28,207 nt of DNA, taken from the IMG/VR virus record IMGVR_UViG_3300022602_000321, positions 1 through 28,207 of that record. The stretch is one strand, 5' to 3'. Positions within the stretch are counted from its first letter, which is position 1. Every line of letters begins with the position of its first letter. Positions 2,827-22,197 of the stretch are shown in pieces. This DNA comes from a virus. The notes beneath the pieces are model-generated. The model did not search any database. It worked only from the letters and a program-made list of their open reading frames with translations, and was not told where the DNA came from. The position numbers were made by a program, and so were the translations under genes.

Positions 2827-2834
2827 TATTTATT
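2827..2834 (-). promoter_or_regulatory. Late-promoter-like AATAAATA, 5 nt from ATG
   Basis: The minus-strand AATAAATA runs over the gp17 stop codon (2833-2835) and ends exactly 5 nt before the ATG of the 638-aa gene. No Shine-Dalgarno is present. By T4 geometry (octamer at -13 to -6) the transcript would start at the A of the ATG. Confidence 0.55.
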
Positions 2835-4422
2835 AATAACTGTTGATGTAGATGGGCATGGGCATTTCGTAGTCATCCATCTTAGCATCTTCGATCATTT
2901 TGCTGTAAATGATAGGATCCCAATCTCCTAGCAATACGATCATACGTACTGCGAGTAAAAGTGCCGAAACTAGATCATCATATTGTTGATCTTTGGCTTT
3001 AAATGTTATGCCCGCCGCGACAAAAGTTTTAAGTTCTGATATTAAACTTTTACTGTTAATCTTCATTTTCTTCTGTTCTATCAGCTGTTTTGCTTTTGAA
3101 CAGGCTGAAATCTTACTGTTATGTGTAGTGTTGAACCCTCTACGGAACCTGCGTACATGCCCTTTCTTCAAGGGTTCTGACAGGAACATTCCCGGAATGC
3201 TTTCTTCCCCCATTTCATTGATAGCAATCAATGCGGCTTCGCCTACAGTATTATTTTCTACGCTGTAATAAATGTTGGCATTTTTTCCTGATTCCAAACA
3301 CTTATTATCAATGTACTTGCAGATTTCTCTAAGTATTTTAACCTGCGCCTGCACGGGTGTAAGATTATGTTGCCATTCTCCGACCTGTTCTAGACTGGGC
3401 AGTTCAAATACTTCTATACCCGCATAGTTGCCACCTGTTCCTAAACTAGGGTCATGAGCGACTACATAAGTGGAGTTAGGATCTATCGGTTTGTACCAGC
3501 GTACTTGTCCCATTTTGATTAATGGTTCAACTCCTTCAAGTTCTGCTAGACAAATACTACTAACCAGTGTTTCGTCAAATACTAAGAACTCACAATCATG
3601 TTCACGACGGAAACGTTCTTCGCCGATACGACTGCGTTCTTCTTCAGCCCACTTATCATCTCTATCTGGATGCTCTCTCCAATGCGCTTTAAACGGAAAG
3701 AATCCGTTACGTCCAACTTCTTGTGTATTACCAAATTCATCTAAACGCTTGTTGGCTTCTTTCCAGATAGTGGCAAACTGATCTTCATCACTGTTGGGAG
3801 TTGATGTAATAATGGCTTTACCGCCAGTTGCCAGTGTCGGTGATATTGAAGTCCAAAACTCCGTAGCCACGTTAGGCGGTACGAACGCAAACTCATCAGC
3901 ATATAGTAATGATAGTGATAAACCCCTTCCTGTTGTTTCAGTAGTCGTCTGTGCGATAATACGGCTGCCATTATCAAACTCTATGCTCTGTTTGTTATAG
4001 CTGGTTACACCGCAACGTATATGATCGGGACATAACTCGTAGGCAAAACGTATACGACTCATAATCTCTTGAGCACCTGTATACTTGTGTGCGGCGATCA
4101 ATATCGTAGCATCCGGTACGAACATAGCATACCATAACAAATATCCTGCCGCTGTAGTTGTCTTGCCAGTTTGGCGGGGTAGCAGGTTTACATTAAATCT
4201 ATGATTGTGATAACTGTCTATTAACCTACGTTGATATTCAAATGCGTCGTATCGTAAACGTCCTTTAGTAGGATGTTGTATGTAAAAAAAGTTATCAAGG
4301 AAATGATGTGGACCAGTAATAGGATCCATACAAGCGCCTAGATCAATTATATCCTGCTCGGTATATTTTTGCTTACTGTGAGCAGTTTTAACTAGGTTAC
4401 CATCAAATCTATTAGTTGTCAT
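2833..4422 (-). CDS. 17: Terminase large subunit, T4 gp17-like
   Basis: This 529-aa ATPase-nuclease drives DNA into the prohead and cuts concatemers. Visible ATPase motifs are the Walker A region LLPRQTGKTTT at residues 80-90, Walker B LSLLYADEFAF at 170-180 (Asp176, Glu177), and the coupling motif TSTPN at 206-210. The nuclease domain shows VVAHDPSLG (Asp324), YYSVENNTVG (Glu389) and YDDLVSALL (Asp482/Asp483), the three acidic clusters expected of an RNase H-fold terminase nuclease. Length is slightly below T4 gp17 (610 aa). It is separated from gp16 by two genes, unlike T4, where 16 and 17 are adjacent. AGTAAATA stands 5 nt before the ATG and a terminator precedes that, so gp17 appears to be its own transcription unit. 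Confidence 0.97.
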   Translation of the reverse strand: MTTNRFDGNLVKTAHSKQKYTEQDIIDLGACMDPITGPHHFLDNFFYIQHPTKGRLRYDAFEYQRRLIDSYHNHRFNVNLLPRQTGKTTTAAGYLLWYAMFVPDATILIAAHKYTGAQEIMSRIRFAYELCPDHIRCGVTSYNKQSIEFDNGSRIIAQTTTETTGRGLSLSLLYADEFAFVPPNVATEFWTSISPTLATGGKAIITSTPNSDEDQFATIWKEANKRLDEFGNTQEVGRNGFFPFKAHWREHPDRDDKWAEEERSRIGEERFRREHDCEFLVFDETLVSSICLAELEGVEPLIKMGQVRWYKPIDPNSTYVVAHDPSLGTGGNYAGIEVFELPSLEQVGEWQHNLTPVQAQVKILREICKYIDNKCLESGKNANIYYSVENNTVGEAALIAINEMGEESIPGMFLSEPLKKGHVRRFRRGFNTTHNSKISACSKAKQLIEQKKMKINSKSLISELKTFVAAGITFKAKDQQYDDLVSALLLAVRMIVLLGDWDPIIYSKMIEDAKMDDYEMPMPIYINSY

Positions 4423-7954: not shown

Positions 7955-9046
7955 TTACTTCCTAGTTACTGATGCCTGTTGTGCCACAGGTCCGGTTGGT
8001 GTGTTAGGAGTAAACAACTGTACTCCGTTTACCGCTCCAGAGTTAAACACAGTAGGTCCGCCCTGTGCCGCATTCTGTACCTGTCCCAATGCTACTCCGG
8101 TTAACTCATTAATAGATGCTTTTTTGTTTAAACTGCTAACATTCTTAGCAAGGTTAGCAGTCTGTATAGCTATGTTTAAATAATCCTGAGGACTACTTGC
8201 GTTGGCAATACTACCATTTGCTCCGAATATAGAACTGGCTCCTGCTATTACTCCACCGGCACCAAACAGGCTCTTGCTACCACCACCTCCTATAGATAAA
8301 GGACTAGGTGTTTTGTCATAATGATTTTTATTAAATCCTACGACGCCTGCATCTCCTCTATTATAAAGTACATTTTCATAAGTAAGAACCATTTTGTTTT
8401 CTAGAAACTTATTGCCCTGTGTCTGGTCAACTTCTCCGTGGCGCCATTCTTTGATTATAGGGTTTACCAATGTTACACTGAGAAACTTTTGTTTATTCAA
8501 AAGGTATACTGTTACGCTATTAAAAAACTGATAGTTTTGTTCGTTGTTTAGACCGTAGTGGTAGAATTTATTTTTGTATTTTGTATCAGTCCATGCTTCA
8601 ATATTAGAATTATTTGCCGCTAGTGTATTACTATATCGACCGTCGCCATAGTAATAACTGTAATAACTGGTCCATAAATCTGTAGATATATTTGCCTGAT
8701 CATCATGGAAAGAAATACTAACTGGTGTATAATCTAATTTTTTCTGTACGATCGTTTTTCTGTTGTATTGATTAAGAACTTCAGTCTCAACAGTAAATTT
8801 AGGTAACTCAACCATCTTGGCCAATAATCCTACATTCATTGAATACTTTTGTGTCCATCCAGGATTTTGTCTATTAAGGAATTTTTGTACGGCAGGATTA
8901 ATATTTAAAGTTACATAATAAATCCAACCATTCTTAGGTGCGTAGTCGTAAAATCCATCAGCTCTATATAACTTACTAGCGTGCTGTGAATCTCGTAACC
9001 AACCTTGAGATAGTACATTGGAAAGGAAAGGAGTTAGATCGCTCAT
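7955..9046 (-). CDS. Tail-tube-fold structural protein (baseplate or tube-associated)
   Basis: In this 363-aa protein, residues about 60-245 look like a beta-barrel of the tail-tube type: FTVETEVLNQYNRKTIVQKK, then PVSISFHDDQANISTDLWTS, then YYSYYYGDGRY, and later VTLVNPIIKEWRHGEVDQTQ followed by GNKFLENKMVLTYENVLY. The 'PV.I.FHDD....T.LW..YY.YYY' pattern recurs in cyanophage structural proteins as I remember them. The C-terminal 110 residues are Gly/Ser/Ala-rich and probably flexible. It sits between gp19 and gp4 after a terminator, in its own unit with CATAAATA 5 nt before the ATG. T4 gp48 or gp54 equivalence is possible but I cannot show it. Confidence 0.75.
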   Translation of the reverse strand: MSDLTPFLSNVLSQGWLRDSQHASKLYRADGFYDYAPKNGWIYYVTLNINPAVQKFLNRQNPGWTQKYSMNVGLLAKMVELPKFTVETEVLNQYNRKTIVQKKLDYTPVSISFHDDQANISTDLWTSYYSYYYGDGRYSNTLAANNSNIEAWTDTKYKNKFYHYGLNNEQNYQFFNSVTVYLLNKQKFLSVTLVNPIIKEWRHGEVDQTQGNKFLENKMVLTYENVLYNRGDAGVVGFNKNHYDKTPSPLSIGGGGSKSLFGAGGVIAGASSIFGANGSIANASSPQDYLNIAIQTANLAKNVSSLNKKASINELTGVALGQVQNAAQGGPTVFNSGAVNGVQLFTPNTPTGPVAQQASVTRK

Positions 9047-9755: not shown

Positions 9756-9763
9756 TATTTATG
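9756..9763 (-). promoter_or_regulatory. Late promoter CATAAATA overlapping the gp18 stop
   Basis: The minus-strand CATAAATA contains the gp18 stop codon TAA (9759-9761). It drives gp19 with a 22-nt leader that holds AAGGAG. Confidence 0.65.
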
Positions 9764-12700
9764 AACCTTTTGACATAGATCCTAAGTTGCCTGAGGCAAT
9801 AGCACCTGTGTTCAACAGTCTCATTGGAATGTATATAAACTCGACTGCTTTAACTGGTTCGATAGCGATATCCATCCATAGTTCGGATCTATCGATCCTT
9901 GATGGTGTATTATTGCTCTCATCACAGACTACGATATAGTCATAAATCGCACGCTGTCCTACTAGTTCAATGAATAAACTTTCAGCGGCATTTTTAATCG
10001 CCTGTCTTGTTATACTGTCATTAGGTTCGAACAAATATGGTTGAGCTAGAATGCCTAACTGTCTACGTAGATAAGCTACTAAACGAGCTACGTTAATTCT
10101 ATCTAATGCGCTGGCTACATGTGATCTTGTATAGTTACCAAAGTTAACTAGACCAACACCATTGATTGTAGATATAGGATTAACTTTGACTCCGGCTAAT
10201 ACATCACGTATACTTTGTGGTATAGATGTTGTGATAAAATCACCTGCCGCATCAACATATCCTGCTGATGTTGCGTTATCTACTGTACCTCTGTTAATAC
10301 CACTTGGAGCAAACCATTGATAACTCTTAGAATCACTATTAGTGATAGTACGTAGCATCATGTGGCTTGGTGGAACAACAATATAGTTTCCTGTATTGTC
10401 ATTTGTATATCCACTTGGATAGAACATAGCCATGTAATCGTCGTAACTTACAGCGCCGATTTCACCATTGTCTGCCGCTAGTTTTGTATTAGCACCCCAG
10501 TTGGCCAACGTTGTTCCAGTTGGTTGTAAACGGAATGGTGTATCACCTACAACAAATCCTGTGTAACCTCTATCACTGTTTAACGCAATCATGTTCTGTA
10601 TAGCCTCTGGATATCCAGGACATGCTATCAAGTTGAATACATAGTTATCAGTGTCTCTTAGAGCTACGTTAGCATCTATCTCACCTTTTAACGCTTCTAT
10701 AACAAAACTACGTTGCGCAAAACGGCCAAACTGTCCAACACCTAAATGATCATTAGGACTTACTGTTACCCAACGAGCTGTGTTATAATAACCAGCCTCT
10801 AAGTTGTCCATTGGATCGTTCTGATAACGAATATTAAAACCGTTGTTATCATAAATGTTGATGTAGTTTGCTTCGTATTTCTTAACATTAAATCCACTAC
10901 GACGTAGATTCCATAAGCGTGTACCTTCTGGATATAGTGCTGGATCTGGAGCATCTGGATCTAGGTAGTTGCTAGTCAACAATTCTTTGATCGTGCTAGG
11001 CATTGTTGCCTGACCGCTAGTTGCCCAACGTGCGTCATGGAATAACCAACCGTTAGGTGTAACATGATCTGTTACATCTTGTTGGACCCAAGTTAATGAA
11101 TCACCATTGTAAACATATACGGTTTGACCATAAATGTCAGTAGCTGAACTATCAATCCAAATATCACCATTCTCTAATGCTGTACCATCGCTCTGAGTAG
11201 TTGGCTGACTGGCAGCAACTATAGGACCGTTTGGATCACTGTTAGGGAATGCAGGTGTAGTACCCTGTGTAGGATGTCCTGTTCCATCGTATTGATAACC
11301 TACCCATGTAGTACCGTTGTGATATAGAATATCTACTTCTTCTAAGTTACTACCGTACCATAGGCTTCCGTTAGCTGGAGTTGTAGTTGGTTCAATCGAA
11401 CTAGCTTCAAATACCAATGGTGCCCAGTTACTGGCTTTAACTGTATAACTGTCGTACATTCCTGCTTCGTATAGGTTAGCTGTTGGGCTATTACCTGCCG
11501 CTGTAAATCCTAGATCTGATAGAACTGGAATAGTTCCGCTATCAGTAATCTGTATATCTCCACCTAGAGCGTGTGTTATTGTTAGATAACCTGCGCTAGA
11601 TACACTTGCTGAAACATTTTGGAATCCTGCGGCACTTATTGCTGTAACTATATCACTGCCATTTACTGTAACGTGACTTGTTGCTGTGCTTGCTGGAATC
11701 GTAGTAACAACAATGGTTGCTGTGTTTGTAACACCTGCCATTCCTGGTACTGTTTCTGCTATAGTTAATTCGTATGTTGCTGTAGATCCTGCTGATTTTG
11801 TAATAACTAATGAGTTTACATTTACAGAACCAACTATTGTAGTAGGCTTAACTGCTGTTCTTCTTAAGATTTCAAACTCAGCTAGTTGCGGGCTACCATC
11901 AGCGCCTGTACCACCGTTGAAGTTGCTTTCAACCATTAGTGTACCAACAGCAATATTCGAACCACCACCTACTGGATCTAGTGCCGCGATACCTGCGTCT
12001 GTTGAACTGTATATAGGAGCATTTACCACACTCCATGCTCCTGTTGTAGCATTGTATAGTTTAACAACCCAAATAGCACCAACACTGGCCGCTGTAGTTT
12101 TAATGTAAACGCTTCCGCTAGGAACACCAGCTGCCGCGTACTTAGGTACTTGTGTATGTGGCGCTATTGTTAATGCCACTGGAGCAAATGTTGATGTAGT
12201 TAGACCCAAGCTATTAACAGCATTACCAGTAATAGTGATCTTACCATCCATTGTTGAACCATTGCTGGCTGCACTAGCATCAGCATATAGTTCTAAATAA
12301 CCTTCGCTATTAACTTTAGCACCAACACCGTATGTTGGTAATAGTGTGTTAATAGTTGTCGCTACTTGTGCTGTACTTGTAGAACCAATAGTAACAGCAT
12401 GACCATTGATAGAGAATGTGCTACCAGGAACAACATTACTAAACCCAGCGCTTGTTACTAGCGGGTAACTTGTTTCCCAACTGTATGATTTGAATGTGCT
12501 ACCAGATATAGGTGTGCCAAACTCTTGTTCAGCATTGCTACCTACTTCTACCCAGTTGTTGTTCATGTTTTTATACCATACAGCTCCCATGTTTCCTGAA
12601 GTAGCTACGACTGCATAAGCACCCAATGTTCCAAAACTAGAGCTCGGTGTCATTCCGTCTGTAGTAGCAGAAGCACTGTTGCTGTCGTCGATGATTAATG

Positions 12701-13190
12701 GTGATTGTAATACAAATACTTTATTAACACTATCCCACTCATAAATTCCAAACTGTGTATTACCTGTATCTAACCAGTATGTTCCATTAACTGGTAATCC
12801 TGTAGGAACGCTTGATTGTGCTGTTAGTTCACTCAAATCAATGTTAGCACGGACCACATAGGCTTTGCTACTAACACCTAGTAAACTGTAAGCGGCTTGT
12901 AAACCGTATTCGTTTTGCTCTCCGCCGTTAATACTGTTTCCTTGGCTGTCTGTTGGAAACAATGGAGTACCGAATGTGCTAGCTAAATCCATCTGGCTAG
13001 TGATGGTGTATATTGGAGCCTCTCCAGTTGCTGCCGGTACTGTACCTATTGCTGTAACTCCGGAGCTGTTAGTCTTGTTCGCTGCCGATGCTACGAATAT
13101 TAAAGGTACTGTTCCAGGTGCTGCCGGTGTGTAAAAACTTTCATCGATTACACTTACGCTAACGCCTGGTGATTGTAGTGTGTTTGCCAT
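9759..13190 (-). CDS. 18: Tail sheath protein, T4 gp18-like, enlarged by insertions
   Basis: This 1143-aa contractile sheath subunit is far longer than T4 gp18 (659 aa). The N-terminus (ANTLQSPGVSVSVIDESFYT, then VPLIFVASA) and C-terminal domain at about 848-1143 (FNLIACPGYPEAIQNMI, RSHVASALDRINVARLVAYL, RRQLGILAQPYLFEPNDSIT, QRAIYDYIVVCDESNNTPSR, VEFIYIPMRLLNTG) are typical sheath. Residues about 125-720 are extra beta-rich material: two flagellin-IN-like units at 255-330 and 503-564, and five short W-containing modules near 129-162, 186-217, 356-390, 602-635 and 669-704. ATG at 13190 is chosen over TTG at 13196 because AGGAG (13199-13203) is 8 nt away from the ATG. The promoter GCTAAATA at 13223-13230 fits. 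The insertions probably face outward on the sheath. Confidence 0.96.
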   Translation of the reverse strand: MANTLQSPGVSVSVIDESFYTPAAPGTVPLIFVASAANKTNSSGVTAIGTVPAATGEAPIYTITSQMDLASTFGTPLFPTDSQGNSINGGEQNEYGLQAAYSLLGVSSKAYVVRANIDLSELTAQSSVPTGLPVNGTYWLDTGNTQFGIYEWDSVNKVFVLQSPLIIDDSNSASATTDGMTPSSSFGTLGAYAVVATSGNMGAVWYKNMNNNWVEVGSNAEQEFGTPISGSTFKSYSWETSYPLVTSAGFSNVVPGSTFSINGHAVTIGSTSTAQVATTINTLLPTYGVGAKVNSEGYLELYADASAASNGSTMDGKITITGNAVNSLGLTTSTFAPVALTIAPHTQVPKYAAAGVPSGSVYIKTTAASVGAIWVVKLYNATTGAWSVVNAPIYSSTDAGIAALDPVGGGSNIAVGTLMVESNFNGGTGADGSPQLAEFEILRRTAVKPTTIVGSVNVNSLVITKSAGSTATYELTIAETVPGMAGVTNTATIVVTTIPASTATSHVTVNGSDIVTAISAAGFQNVSASVSSAGYLTITHALGGDIQITDSGTIPVLSDLGFTAAGNSPTANLYEAGMYDSYTVKASNWAPLVFEASSIEPTTTPANGSLWYGSNLEEVDILYHNGTTWVGYQYDGTGHPTQGTTPAFPNSDPNGPIVAASQPTTQSDGTALENGDIWIDSSATDIYGQTVYVYNGDSLTWVQQDVTDHVTPNGWLFHDARWATSGQATMPSTIKELLTSNYLDPDAPDPALYPEGTRLWNLRRSGFNVKKYEANYINIYDNNGFNIRYQNDPMDNLEAGYYNTARWVTVSPNDHLGVGQFGRFAQRSFVIEALKGEIDANVALRDTDNYVFNLIACPGYPEAIQNMIALNSDRGYTGFVVGDTPFRLQPTGTTLANWGANTKLAADNGEIGAVSYDDYMAMFYPSGYTNDNTGNYIVVPPSHMMLRTITNSDSKSYQWFAPSGINRGTVDNATSAGYVDAAGDFITTSIPQSIRDVLAGVKVNPISTINGVGLVNFGNYTRSHVASALDRINVARLVAYLRRQLGILAQPYLFEPNDSITRQAIKNAAESLFIELVGQRAIYDYIVVCDESNNTPSRIDRSELWMDIAIEPVKAVEFIYIPMRLLNTGAIASGNLGSMSKGS

Positions 13191-13222
13191 TGTCAAATCT
13201 CCTAGTTTGGATCACTTTGTTT

Positions 13223-14286: not shown

Positions 14287-15087
14287 TCAACCTCTAGTAA
14301 ACCACATTGGGTTTTGATTGTCTTCATTATTAATCAAGGCCTGTTCTAATTTTTCAATCATCTCTTTACCTTCAGCTTTTAGTGCCGCACCATTAAGCTG
14401 TGTTCCGCCTTGCGGACTGGCAATAGTGGCGAACTTTTCACGTGCTTCACCTAATATGATTTTACAGTTTGCTAGTGCGTAGTCCTTTAACCATATGCCA
14501 GAATAGGGGTCTGAGAACAACTGAAAATCTGGACGTTGATTGTACATCCATAATAACACACTTTCTTGTCCTCTTGGTCGCTGTGTAATACGTAGCTTTT
14601 TAGTAACTGGATTAAAATCAAACAGTATATAACTACCAAATAACTTACCAACTTCTTTCTGGTATGATGCAAACATGTAATAAGTTGCGATACCGCCCAT
14701 ATTACTGGTACTCAACAAGTAGGTGTTAGAATACGCCAAGTTGAATGGTTCGAATAAACTTCCGCCGTCTCCGCCACCTGTTCTAGATCCAATACTACGA
14801 CGAAATATTTCTCTAACACTGGTAACTTCTCTAGGCAGTATATATTCGTTTTGATCTATTTCTAGAGTTAAAAATCCATAGCTTTCCTCAACAGCATTGC
14901 TACTGCGTTGGCGATATTTTGCTAGTGCTCTATCAATAGCTACATTATAATGTTTAGGATCTAACTCAACATCAACGATGCCGTCAGCTAAGAAATTACG
15001 GATATAATTTACTACATCTTGTCGTGCGACTTCCAGCTCTTTTAGATAGTCTTCGTATTCTTTAGTGGGTTTATTGTTTAGGTCCAT
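14287..15087 (-). CDS. 13: Neck protein, T4 gp13-like
   Basis: This 266-aa protein is predicted to join the portal vertex to the tail. Family-like stretches are: residues 20-65 with VVNYIRNFLADGIVDVELDP and YNVAIDRALAKYRQRSSNAV, TLEIDQNEYILPREVTSVRE, IFRRSIGS, then LFDFNPVTKKLRITQRPRGQ, WLKDYALANCKIILGEAREK and GAALKAEGKEMIEKLEQAL. Length fits (T4 gp13 is 309 aa). It is divergent from gp14, whereas in T4 genes 13, 14 and 15 run in one direction. GGTAAATA ends 5 nt before the ATG; an AAGG exists 12 nt upstream but is inside the octamer region, too far for a normal ribosome site. Confidence 0.88.
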   Translation of the reverse strand: MDLNNKPTKEYEDYLKELEVARQDVVNYIRNFLADGIVDVELDPKHYNVAIDRALAKYRQRSSNAVEESYGFLTLEIDQNEYILPREVTSVREIFRRSIGSRTGGGDGGSLFEPFNLAYSNTYLLSTSNMGGIATYYMFASYQKEVGKLFGSYILFDFNPVTKKLRITQRPRGQESVLLWMYNQRPDFQLFSDPYSGIWLKDYALANCKIILGEAREKFATIASPQGGTQLNGAALKAEGKEMIEKLEQALINNEDNQNPMWFTRG

Positions 15088-15092
15088 ACCAT

Positions 15093-15100
15093 TATTTACC
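15093..15100 (-). promoter_or_regulatory. Late-promoter-like GGTAAATA, 5 nt from the gp13 ATG
   Basis: The minus-strand GGTAAATA is back to back with the plus-strand TATAAATA at 15102-15109, one base apart. Together they form a near-palindromic divergent promoter, with TATTTA at 15093-15098 and TAAATA at 15104-15109. Confidence 0.55.
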
Positions 15101-15101
15101 T

Positions 15102-15109
15102 TATAAATA
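15102..15109 (+). promoter_or_regulatory. Consensus late promoter TATAAATA for the gp14-gp15-Nudix operon
   Basis: This is an exact match to the T4 late promoter consensus. By T4 geometry transcription starts near 15115, giving a leader of about 142 nt before the gp14 GTG. Confidence 0.75.
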
Positions 15110-15116
15110 TACTACT

Positions 15117-15269
15117 ATGCCGGATACATTTCAATTCTTAAAAAACAAATATACTAGATGGTACTATAGTATTATCAATAATGCTCAAAATAGAGAAATT
15201 AATGACTATGTAGAATCTCATCATATTATTCCTAAAAGTTATCTTAGGAGTTTAAAGTGCCAAGGTTGA
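15117..15269 (+). pseudogene. Remnant of an HNH homing endonuclease (first 50 residues)
   Basis: A 50-codon frame from ATG 15117 to TGA 15267-15269 starts MPDTFQFLKNKYTRWYYSII, continues NNAQNREINDYVESHHIIPK and ends SYLRSLKCQG. 'KYTRWYYSIINNA', 10-20 residues, then 'ESHHIIPKS' is the N-terminus of HNH homing endonucleases of T4-like phages. In intact members a Gly-Gly-Asn and 'L..LT.REH..' region follows; here it is absent and the frame runs into gp14. The ATG is only 2 nt past the predicted transcription start and has no ribosome site. It overlaps the gp14 start by 13 nt, and its last codons contain the gp14 Shine-Dalgarno. It is read as a deletion remnant retained as leader. Confidence 0.75.
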
Positions 15270-16474
15270 GTTTATACAAACCCGAAAAAGGCCCCGATTT
15301 CCGATTTCTAGATCGTGTTATCAACGAACAATTCCAAGTGGGCGGAACTGATATATTTGTTCACAAATATCTAGGGCCTGTTGATCCTATTACTGGTTCT
15401 AGTACTCCGGAAATACCTGTAAACACTAACCCTATACCGGAACTAGGCATACAGGATCTGCTGTTTATGGAAAACAGAGATAGGCATTACGATCCCGATG
15501 TTTATCATTTGCGTGGCATTTATACGATGCAGGATATAGATTTTAATCTAAGCCAGTTTGGATTATTTCTACAAAATGATAACATTATGATTAACTTTCA
15601 TTTGCGTACTACTTTTGAAGCGATAGGACGTAAACTTATGGCTGGAGATGTGTTAGAGTTACCCCATTTAAAAGATGAATACGCATTAGATGACAGTATG
15701 GTAGCACTAAAGAGATTCTATGTGATTACAGATATAACTCGTGTCAGCAGTGGATTCAGTCAAACCTGGTATCCACATTTACTAAGAGCAAAATGCCAAC
15801 CTTTAGTCGATAGTCAAGAGTTTAAAGAAATATTAGATAGCCCATCCGGTGACGGTAATAAAACCCTACGTGATGTTCTCAGTACATACAATCAAAATAT
15901 CGCAATCAATCAGGCGATTATACAAGAAGCAGAACTTAATGTTCCTAAGAGTGGTTACGATACCAGCCCCTATTATGTATTGCCGTTAAAGGACGATGGA
16001 TTGTTAAATCCGGTTGATACAACAGCCGGAGATGCCGATGCCAGTACAGATCATAATGTATTAGATGCCAGTTTTATTTTGCGTTCCGACACACAGGGCC
16101 CTAATCAACAGTATGCGGGCTATCTTACAGAAAATGCTATTCCACCAAACGGGTCGCCATATACATTTGGCATCACTTATCCCAGTAGCCCAGTAATAGG
16201 ACAGTTCCATTTACGTACAGATTTCTTTCCTAATAGACTGTTCAAGTGGGATGGAAAATATTGGATCAAGGTACAAGATTCAGTGCGCATGACAGAAGAT
16301 AACTTTGGTTATCAAGACACTGCACCAGGTAAATTGAACGCAGGTAAAGATGTTGAGCTAAATCAGAAAGCTAGTTTTGTGAATAACAATAATACAGCCA
16401 CTATCAATGGTGTAGTGATACAGGAAAAACAAAGTCTAAGTAAAGCACTTAGACCAAAGGCAGATAATCTATGA
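15257..16474 (+). CDS. 14: Neck protein, T4 gp14-like
   Basis: This 405-aa protein is predicted to work with gp13 at the head-tail junction. Typical stretches are PRLSLYKPEKGPDFRFLDR, INEQFQVGGTDIFVHKYLGP, IQDLLFMENRDRHYDPDVYH, LRGIYTMQDIDFNLSQFGLF, EAIGRKLMAGDVLELPHL and FSQTWYPHLLRAKCQPLVDS, all within residues 1-187. The C-terminal 210 residues go beyond T4 gp14 (256 aa) and include a W-DG-x-W module at 307-342 (PSSPVIGQFHLRTD, LFKWDGKYWIKVQD). The start is GTG at 15257, set by AGGAG 6 nt upstream. Its stop overlaps the gp15 start (ATGA). It is on the strand opposite to gp13 and most tail genes. Confidence 0.93.
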   Translation: MPRLSLYKPEKGPDFRFLDRVINEQFQVGGTDIFVHKYLGPVDPITGSSTPEIPVNTNPIPELGIQDLLFMENRDRHYDPDVYHLRGIYTMQDIDFNLSQFGLFLQNDNIMINFHLRTTFEAIGRKLMAGDVLELPHLKDEYALDDSMVALKRFYVITDITRVSSGFSQTWYPHLLRAKCQPLVDSQEFKEILDSPSGDGNKTLRDVLSTYNQNIAINQAIIQEAELNVPKSGYDTSPYYVLPLKDDGLLNPVDTTAGDADASTDHNVLDASFILRSDTQGPNQQYAGYLTENAIPPNGSPYTFGITYPSSPVIGQFHLRTDFFPNRLFKWDGKYWIKVQDSVRMTEDNFGYQDTAPGKLNAGKDVELNQKASFVNNNNTATINGVVIQEKQSLSKALRPKADNL

Positions 16475-19884: not shown

Positions 19885-22197
19885 TTATGCGAAGGTAGAG
19901 TATTGAGCAACTACGTTAAATGTACCAGCAAGATTGAGTACACCGTAAGACACTACATCTGTATGGTTGGCATTGCCTGACCAAGGAGTACCATTGGCCC
20001 ATTTTGGAGTTACAGCACTACCATTTATAGTGATTGAAGTGGCGGTATAAGCTGTAGATCCTTGGTTCACTACTACTGTAAGAATAGTACTGTAGTTAGA
20101 AGGATTGGTAGGAACATTGGTAAAAGCTATACTCCATGTCGCACTAGGAGTTACATAATAGGTTTGTCCAGATGTATAACTTAGAGTAGTTGCTCCGGAA
20201 ACAGATCCTACATTACTAAGTATTTCCAATGTGTTTGTTAATGTCGATAATCCAGTTGATATTATTCCTGCAAAAGAAGATACACCACTAACTGATAAGT
20301 TACTGCTAATCGAGAACGACGAAGTTGTTCCAGTACTAGCACTACCGCCTCCTCCTCCGGTATACGCTGTAGTTTGAACGGTGTTATCTGGGAATGTTAA
20401 TCCACCAGTTACACCAAATGTCCAAGTAGATGCTGATCCCGTTGCCGGAGATGCTATAATGGTAACACTGCCTGTTCCTGTATTGCTGACCAACTGGTTA
20501 GGTATACTAAAGGCACCATTGACACTGCTTAATGAAGCGGAATATGTACCAGCAAATAGTGTATTGCTAGTGGCTAAAGATCCTGTTGATATCCATGTTG
20601 CAGTAGTACCATTGCTAGATAATATATAACCAGCAGTACCGATTGGTATAAACGCTGTTTGTCCTGTAGCACTTTGTATAGGTATACTACCGCTAGCGCC
20701 TCCTGCTAAGTTTGTAGCTGTAGTAGCTGTGCTAGCAGATGCGGCTGATCCGCCCGATGTCGAAGTACTAACTGGCCATATGCCCACATAAACATTAGTA
20801 GCTGTTATTACACCATTTGCGTATATTCCACCACCTACTCCAACTCCACCAGATACTACCAATGCGCCAGTAGTTGTACTAGTTGTAGGAGTTGTATTTG
20901 TGATTAAAAATGAGTTATTGGTACCTGTTATATTACTACCACCAGATGTTGTGCCTGTACTAACTGGCCATATGCCCACATAAACATTAGTAGCTGTTAT
21001 TATACCACCGGCATATAGTCCACCACCTACTCCGACTCCACCATTGACAACTAATGCGCCAGTAGTTGTACTAGTTGTAGGAGTTGTGTTTGTAATAGTG
21101 AATATATCTGGACTAGTTATTAAACTTTGTGTAATAGTTGTGTAGGCTATAGTTAACTGAGTGGCTGTTATACCTCCATACACATAAAGATTTCCAGAAA
21201 TGCCAACACCGCCCGCTACAACCAATGCTCCTGTTGTAGTTGATGTTGCCTGTGTAGTATTTGTTATCAAGAAACTGCTGGTAGTACCGGTGCTTGATGC
21301 TGAACCACCAGATACTGATGTAGTACTTGTACCTGTACTAACTGGCCAAATACCAATGTACATACTGTTAGCAGTTACTGTGTTATAAAAGAATGTACCT
21401 GTAGTGCCAAATGAAGCCTGTCTAGTAATATTAGTAACACTACTTCCTCTTGGAGTAATCCAAAGGTCAATACGACTACCTTGTGCATTAGCTGTTTGAG
21501 TTTCGTCAGCGACCATGTCCCAACGAACTGTACTAATTGCAGGCCATCCACTGGTATTATAAGGTGTTCCACCTAGCCTAAATATAATATCGTTAAAGTT
21601 TAAACCAGCCGGAGCGGCTGTTGTTCCATTGTAGTGGCGTCCAATAATAGCGGAATAATTACCAGTTCCTTGTCCATCTATGTAGACACGAGCAGGGTTA
21701 CTGACCTGTCCGGTCATCTGTAATATTACACCGTTATTCTGTGGTGCTATATAGTTTCCGCCCAAATTTCCGATAAAGTTTACCAAAGCACCTGTGCTAG
21801 TTGTAGCCGAGCCGTTACCTGATACTGTTAAAAAACTGGAAATATAAGCATTACCGTTTGCCGCGATACCTCCTGCAACTACCAACGCTCCTGTTGTAGT
21901 TGATGTTGACAGTGTGTTATTAGTGATTAGGAAAGAACTATTTGTACCTGTGATGCTACTACCACCAGACGTTGTGCCTGTGCTAACTGGCCAAACACCA
22001 ACATACATGTTGGTAGCTGTTATTACACCACCTGCGTATATTCCTCCGCCGAGTCCTATCCCTCCTGCAACTACCAATGCTCCCGTGACTGTCGAAGTAG
22101 ATGCCACTGTGCTGGTGTTGATTTCACCGCCTACAGTTAGGGCCCCTTGTACTGTTCCAGTACCATAAATTGTTGTTCCGCCTTGTAATAATGCCAT
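19885..22197 (-). CDS. Repeat-rich tail fibre protein
   Basis: This 770-aa Ser/Thr/Gly-rich protein has five copies of a GALVV-x-GG unit at about residues 39, 103, 323, 380 and 444. Most are followed about 20 residues later by ITATNVYVGIWPVSTGT-type sequence, a beta-helical or triple-stranded repeat well known in phage fibres. Residues 130-275 are a non-repeat insert with YNGTTAAPAGLNFNDIIFRL and SRIDLWITPRGS, like trimeric fibre knobs. Residues 500-640 carry SNGTTATWIST and GGLTFPDNTVQTTAY, typical of fibre shafts, and the last 100 residues are a beta-rich tip. There is no signal peptide. The GGTAAATA octamer lies 7 nt before the ATG. Receptor binding at the tail end is the likely role. Confidence 0.88.
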   Translation of the reverse strand: MALLQGGTTIYGTGTVQGALTVGGEINTSTVASTSTVTGALVVAGGIGLGGGIYAGGVITATNMYVGVWPVSTGTTSGGSSITGTNSSFLITNNTLSTSTTTGALVVAGGIAANGNAYISSFLTVSGNGSATTSTGALVNFIGNLGGNYIAPQNNGVILQMTGQVSNPARVYIDGQGTGNYSAIIGRHYNGTTAAPAGLNFNDIIFRLGGTPYNTSGWPAISTVRWDMVADETQTANAQGSRIDLWITPRGSSVTNITRQASFGTTGTFFYNTVTANSMYIGIWPVSTGTSTTSVSGGSASSTGTTSSFLITNTTQATSTTTGALVVAGGVGISGNLYVYGGITATQLTIAYTTITQSLITSPDIFTITNTTPTTSTTTGALVVNGGVGVGGGLYAGGIITATNVYVGIWPVSTGTTSGGSNITGTNNSFLITNTTPTTSTTTGALVVSGGVGVGGGIYANGVITATNVYVGIWPVSTSTSGGSAASASTATTATNLAGGASGSIPIQSATGQTAFIPIGTAGYILSSNGTTATWISTGSLATSNTLFAGTYSASLSSVNGAFSIPNQLVSNTGTGSVTIIASPATGSASTWTFGVTGGLTFPDNTVQTTAYTGGGGGSASTGTTSSFSISSNLSVSGVSSFAGIISTGLSTLTNTLEILSNVGSVSGATTLSYTSGQTYYVTPSATWSIAFTNVPTNPSNYSTILTVVVNQGSTAYTATSITINGSAVTPKWANGTPWSGNANHTDVVSYGVLNLAGTFNVVAQYSTFA
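20765..21087 (-). repeat. 192-bp direct repeat inside the fibre gene
   Basis: Two exact matches recur with the same 192-bp offset: 46 nt (20765-20810 and 20957-21002) and 35 nt (20861-20895 and 21053-21087). They encode the last two 64-residue units of the 770-aa fibre. Neighbouring units at 21.2-21.4, 21.9 and 22.0 kb are more diverged. Confidence 0.9.

Follow-up and report, generated by a model that had tools for sequence, protein, structure and literature searches.

The window analysed here (the whole stretch of 28,207 nucleotides, covering positions 1 to 28,207 of IMG/VR virus record IMGVR_UViG_3300022602_000321) contains a gp13-like gene and a gp14 gene that diverge from a short intergenic junction (Table 1). 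The name gp14 is based on PHROG 11591 together with the neighbouring gp13 (phrog_211) and tail sheath stabiliser (phrog_227) genes. On the gp14 side, the junction opens with the box TATAAATA, of which a scan of both strands found no other exact copy in the window. Both this box and its spacing have T4-type late-promoter features and are conserved across relatives. The T4 late box spans –13 to –6, as deduced from how PMC2988020 numbers the positions, and the RNA is expected to start near 15115, approximately 2 nt ahead of the ATG of a 50-codon frame (MPDTFQFLKNKYTRWYYSIINNAQNREINDYVESHHIIPKSYLRSLKCQG). This frame was confirmed to open at 15117 and to end with a stop codon at 15267–15269, while an AGGAG motif is found 6 nt ahead of the GTG start codon of gp14. 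The original prediction that a promoter and a ribosome site bracket a dead selfish element is therefore borne out as to the location of both signals, and their use is predicted from the letters.

Table 1. Features at the gp13/gp14 junction of the window.
Feature	Position	Strand	Basis or remark
gp13-like head-tail adaptor, divergent, junction marker	14287..15087	-	phrog_211
T4-type late promoter box TATAAATA	15102..15109	+	sequence; conserved in relatives, ahead of either gp14 or the endonuclease insert
Remnant frame, 50 codons	15117..15269	+	stop 13 nt within gp14
Homing endonuclease codons 1–41, to HHIIPKS (first part of HNH motif)	15117..15239	+	PHROG 655; 73% aa identity to L018
Predicted hairpin, 8 bp, SD in 3′ arm, made by the deletion	15228..15251	+	–7.0 kcal/mol
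AAAGTT direct repeat, 6 nt, deletion junction	15235..15240	+	overlap of 5′ and 3′ matches with L018, L252, L085
Retained 3′ end of endonuclease gene, out of frame in remnant	15235..15256	+	3′ ends of L018, L252/L085
Shine-Dalgarno (SD) AGGAG for gp14	15246..15250	+	sequence; similar spacing in 30 distinct junctions
gp14, virion structural protein, GTG start	15257..16474	+	phrog_11591

Database searches supported the earlier reading of the 50-codon frame as the front of an HNH homing endonuclease. In a profile search, residues 7–41 matched PHROG 655 (homing endonuclease, HNH type) with E=2.6e-11, and tblastn retrieved matching homing endonucleases of cultured phages, the best being the MobE-annotated homing endonucleases of Sinorhizobium phages (E 4e-6). 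An intact copy in a relative, L018, was compared over the first 41 codons (7 synonymous and 11 non-synonymous codon differences, which are uninformative on selection). The H-N-H motif is incomplete, as the remnant stops at HHIIPKS and the downstream N and H of intact copies (NLV..REHFICH) have been deleted, making it a remnant rather than a working member of PHROG 655. Pfam searches of the 50 residues reached no HNH model and did not find NUMOD3, the DNA-binding part that is present in intact relatives. With its HNH motif reduced to the first histidines and NUMOD3 missing, the remnant cannot be an active nuclease, judging from knowledge of the family and from domain and sequence comparison. 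A second endonuclease copy was looked for within the same record and not found.

Comparison with intact relatives revealed how the frame is built. The L018 locus matches the window from the promoter to CCTAAAAGTT, and its similarity resumes at AAAGTTAT and continues almost to the gene end, with both matches overlapping in AAAGTT. From endonuclease start to gp14 start, L018 measures 731 nt and the window 140 nt, corresponding to an internal deletion of ~590 nt with out-of-frame joining at the 6-nt repeat. The last 22 nt ahead of gp14 constitute the original 3′ end of the endonuclease gene, and the 3′ tail of the window, including the GTG start of gp14, agrees with that of L252/L086 at 27 of 30 nt. 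The original stop codon of the endonuclease (TAA) is located at 15253–15255; with the frame shifted at the joint, the remnant reads on past it, and its final nine codons correspond to the endonuclease 3′ end read out of frame. The original prediction had considered the rest of the gene to be missing and its frame to close inside gp14. The latter holds, but the former is not quite right, since the gene retains its 3′ end, which holds the ribosome site. Likewise, the AGGAG was properly assigned to the last codons of the remnant, with the correction that it stems from the endonuclease's own 3′ end. Compared with its relatives, the scar is an endonuclease gene that appears to have lost its middle while keeping both ends, and we consider it very probable that the leader of gp14 originated as such a deletion scar. 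L018 and L252 are relatives only, and the true intact ancestor of the scar was not found among the collected loci.

The relatives of gp14 were gathered from viral contigs; the close ones were all metagenomic, and the collections may leave out the records nearest to the window. Inspection of the gp13/gp14 junction in these relatives, which had been proposed along with the original prediction, revealed clean divergent junctions in most of them and intact endonucleases of ~210–245 aa, occupying precisely the interval from the late box to gp14, in others (L018, L073/L075, L074, L083/L084, L085, L086, L087, L088–L091, L092, L100, L373, L421/L422). Four intact copies were tested, and each matched PHROG 655 across almost its full length (E 1e-46 to 4e-54). 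NUMOD3 exceeded the Pfam cut-off in three of these four, and HNH (PF01844) did so in one while coming near the cut-off in the remaining three. The junction is a fixed site with occupied and empty alleles: 144 distinct late-box junctions are free of any insert, a further 14 junctions hold an intact endonuclease, and scars come in five kinds. Among cultured phages, gp14 homologues reached at most ~35% identity over full length (jumbo phages Atu_ph07 and PA5oct), and no endonuclease was annotated directly ahead of gp14 in the four that were checked; a search of the genome collection yielded one short match only.

Other inserts were also observed at this junction. Five loci (L042, L046, L050, L063 and L065) carry a different insert of ~480 nt that opens with ATGCC, reads MPTIVQFRRGTSSQ.. 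and appears fibre-like by eye, with gp14 following directly from an ATG start, while L067 (688 nt) and L025 (1890 nt) have further distinct inserts ahead of gp14. These various inserts indicate that the site accepts several kinds of insertion. One further locus, L522 (CAILLA010000018.1), is on a contig binned as a Schlesneria MAG whose edge encodes a 60-aa piece with 92% identity to gp14, and is probably a mis-binned phage contig.

At least four further scars of differing lengths were present at the same site, being 25 codons in L402/L413, 21 in L348, 51 in L395/L398/L399/L400 and 11 in L272, the latter retaining the promoter, ATG and last codons only. Three of them have near-identical intact or empty counterparts among the relatives. 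Relative to intact L396, L395 has a 587-nt deletion with a 2-nt overlap, and the flanks of the joint (169 and 48 nt) are 100% identical; with the empty locus L401, these two form a trio of intact, scarred and empty alleles. The identity between L395 and L396 is highest at the element (100% within 200 nt upstream) and drops to either side, reaching 80–88%, a peak as would be expected from homing or other recombination. The same two phages, otherwise similar, differ by a second small indel (L395:3720–3775), ~55 nt long and with TATAAATTTAAAGGAGG, in the gap that separates gp14 from the next gene. L272 and intact L085 share a 6-nt overlap, ATAATT, whereas L272 and clean L273 differ by one swapped block of ~86 nt, comprising the leader and 12 nt of gp14, between long near-identical flanks. 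Similarly, L348 carries 53 nt that clean L473 lacks, inserted exactly behind the ATG, with flanks of 96–97% identity and with differences clustered in the first gp14 codons after the insert. The swapped first codons of gp14 in both pairs are compatible with homing co-conversion as well as with ordinary recombination. A gp14 tree obtained by a short search placed four N-terminal scars in four places and required at least 11 changes in endonuclease presence and at least 19 in leader state, with gain and loss being indistinguishable. These patterns indicate that invasion and collapse were repeated several times in related lake phages.

The final count of start sites covered 356 loci with 183 distinct junctions. 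An insert-free late box followed by ATG accounted for 144 of these, a late box within an intact endonuclease followed by ATG for 3, an SD-led gp14 for 30, and neither type of lead for 6. All 147 late-box-led junctions thus start gp14 with ATG, whereas 29 of the 30 SD-led ones use ATT, GTG or TTG, the sole ATG being that of L018. The gp14 tree offers 14 independent pairs with contrasting leader states, and in 13 to 14 of these the start codon changes too, always in the same direction (sign test p=0.0001). The occurrence of three distinct non-ATG codons would argue for repeated change. Start-codon baselines (mechanically chosen ORFs, and gp15 located by tblastn) were too noisy and were dropped. 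Among 123 clean junctions analysed earlier, TAAATA preceded the ATG by 4–8 nt, mostly 7. With the T4 late box at –13 to –6, such a short gap implies that insert-free gp14 mRNAs should be near leaderless, and they are probably almost so if the T4-consensus spacing applies. The earlier suggestion that the remnant may explain the GTG start of gp14 gained support from comparison, as intact elements sharing the 3′ tail of the window (L086/L252, L085) already precede a GTG-started gp14 and insert-free relatives use ATG.

An apparent ATT start behind a strong SD (AAGGAGAAYTAAA-ATT-CC) was found at L017:5001, L027:5001, L057:5001, L076:5001, L250:1653, L326:1963, L087:3696 and L476. For 13 of the 16 ATT-started gp14 genes, no other in-frame start occurs between the upstream stop and the ATT, and the next downstream start usually lies 17–71 codons into the conserved protein. 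AUU starts would be unusual for phage structural genes. A short hairpin is possible between AGGAG and ATTCCT in these leaders. SD-led leaders without endonuclease pieces (e.g. L250, L326) need not be scars and could predate the element.

A history that accommodates these data would start in an ancestor with the insertion of a free-standing, MobE-like homing endonuclease gene (HNH type, PHROG 655) at the gp14 start codon. The element would have captured the late promoter and ATG-CC start of gp14, while its own 3′ end would have set an SD and GTG start ahead of that gene. An internal deletion between the AAAGTT repeats would then have removed the remainder of the nuclease domain along with the DNA-binding part. 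We propose that both element ends were retained by selection because gp14 has come to depend on them, taking its late promoter from the 5′ end and its SD and start codon from the 3′ end. The deletion joined ATTCCTAA to TTAGGAGT, which is predicted to yield the 8-bp hairpin over the SD. As its folding energy was modestly below that of shuffled sequences (z=–2.1; 10 of 200 shuffles equally low), and the whole-leader fold showed no excess over shuffles (z=–0.3), this hairpin is only a modest clue. After initiation by the late RNA polymerase just ahead of the remnant, ribosomes may enter at the remnant ATG without a Shine-Dalgarno sequence, translate the 50 codons, unfold the hairpin masking the gp14 SD, terminate within gp14 and re-initiate at its GTG. 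We lean slightly towards such coupled re-initiation through the remnant as the mechanism.

It is also quite conceivable, if a little less than evenly probable, that the scar is passive, with ribosomes loading directly at the gp14 SD behind a 140-nt untranslated leader and the 50-codon reading being irrelevant. The good spacing of the AGGAG, a whole-leader fold no stronger than that of shuffles and the wide range of scar lengths (11 to 51 codons) would agree with this. However, in four of the five scars (including that of the window) the mini-frame stops 13 nt within gp14, and in the fifth just ahead of it, an arrangement typical of coupling, and the window has the local hairpin over its SD. 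As for how the scar arrived, recombination could have imported it as a ready-made short leader rather than forming it in the lineage of the window. The ~86-nt block that distinguishes L272 from L273, and the similar case of L348 and L473, suggest that such exchange can happen, but no near-identical empty relative of the window was found among the collected loci (L002 comes closest, with 78.3% identity in gp14 DNA), and we regard import as rather unlikely.

Two further readings were rejected. That the frame encodes a small functional protein under selection, such as a regulator, might be suggested by an open frame starting right behind a late promoter box, yet it is confined to near-identical contigs rather than being conserved as a stand-alone protein in relatives, other scars differ from it in length and C-terminus, and its last nine codons are out-of-frame endonuclease 3′ end, making this very improbable; the remnant copies, being identical to one another, are uninformative for a selection test. 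An assembly artefact or chance frame has to be considered for any metagenome contig such as the window. However, the identical 50 residues recur in contigs 3300013093_001130 and 3300021139_000492 of two metagenome records, both with zero nucleotide differences across 15088–15269, even though 29 positions in 5.7 kb, all outside that interval, distinguish one of them from the window. Together with the PHROG 655 match, this reduces artefact or chance to a negligible probability.

Free-standing HNH homing endonucleases located between essential genes and driven by upstream phage promoters are known from T4 (mobA–mobE) and Aeh1 (MobE), with the start/stop overlap of mobE being suggestive of translational coupling (PMC2988022). 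The window element belongs to the same HNH family, with a Sinorhizobium phage MobE as its best cultured match, but it lacks the nuclease body and gives the downstream gene a ribosome site and start codon instead of an embedded promoter. In the T4 segG/gene 32 type, promoters of an essential gene are embedded in the endonuclease, which is said to favour its retention (PMC2988022). Here too, an essential downstream gene would depend on sequence within a homing gene, so that imprecise loss of the latter must spare the embedded signal, although the signal kept in the window is translational (SD and weak start codon). An embedded late box takes the place of the SD and weak start in L074 and L421/L422. 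The cycle in which homing genes invade, decay, are lost and invade again (restated in PMC13405050) is recognisable in the coexisting intact, decayed and empty alleles at the gp14 site, but decay here appears to proceed by internal deletions from which a working gene leader remains, repeatedly at one site. While decay of homing genes is known, the new element would be that start-site replacement locks the scar in place.

More tentatively, the element might act as a portable start-site module that converts an essential neck gene from a near-leaderless AUG to an SD-led, coupled start at a weak codon, namely AUU, GUG or UUG. Its nuclease could then be deleted and its leader could not, barring recombination with an empty allele, and the module might spread or persist alone, leaving AUU-started structural genes behind. 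The natural empty, intact and deleted alleles in close phages offer a case in which a selfish gene would alter the translation of an essential gene, with the change outliving it, and a system for testing why SD-led gp14 nearly always has weak starts, AUU included, and late-box-led gp14 has AUG. Annotation restricted to ATG, GTG and TTG will misplace gp14 starts of the AUU type.

Elsewhere in the window, the genes at 905–2821, 2833–4422, 7955–9046, 14287–15087 and 19885–22197 have TAAATA 5–7 nt ahead of their ATG and no clear SD, resembling gp14 of empty-site relatives, and late mRNAs with almost no leader may be widespread in this group of phages. The window also encodes, at 9759–13196, a very long tail sheath protein of 1145 aa, which matched PHROG 10581 (profile of 915 positions) with E=7.7e-196.
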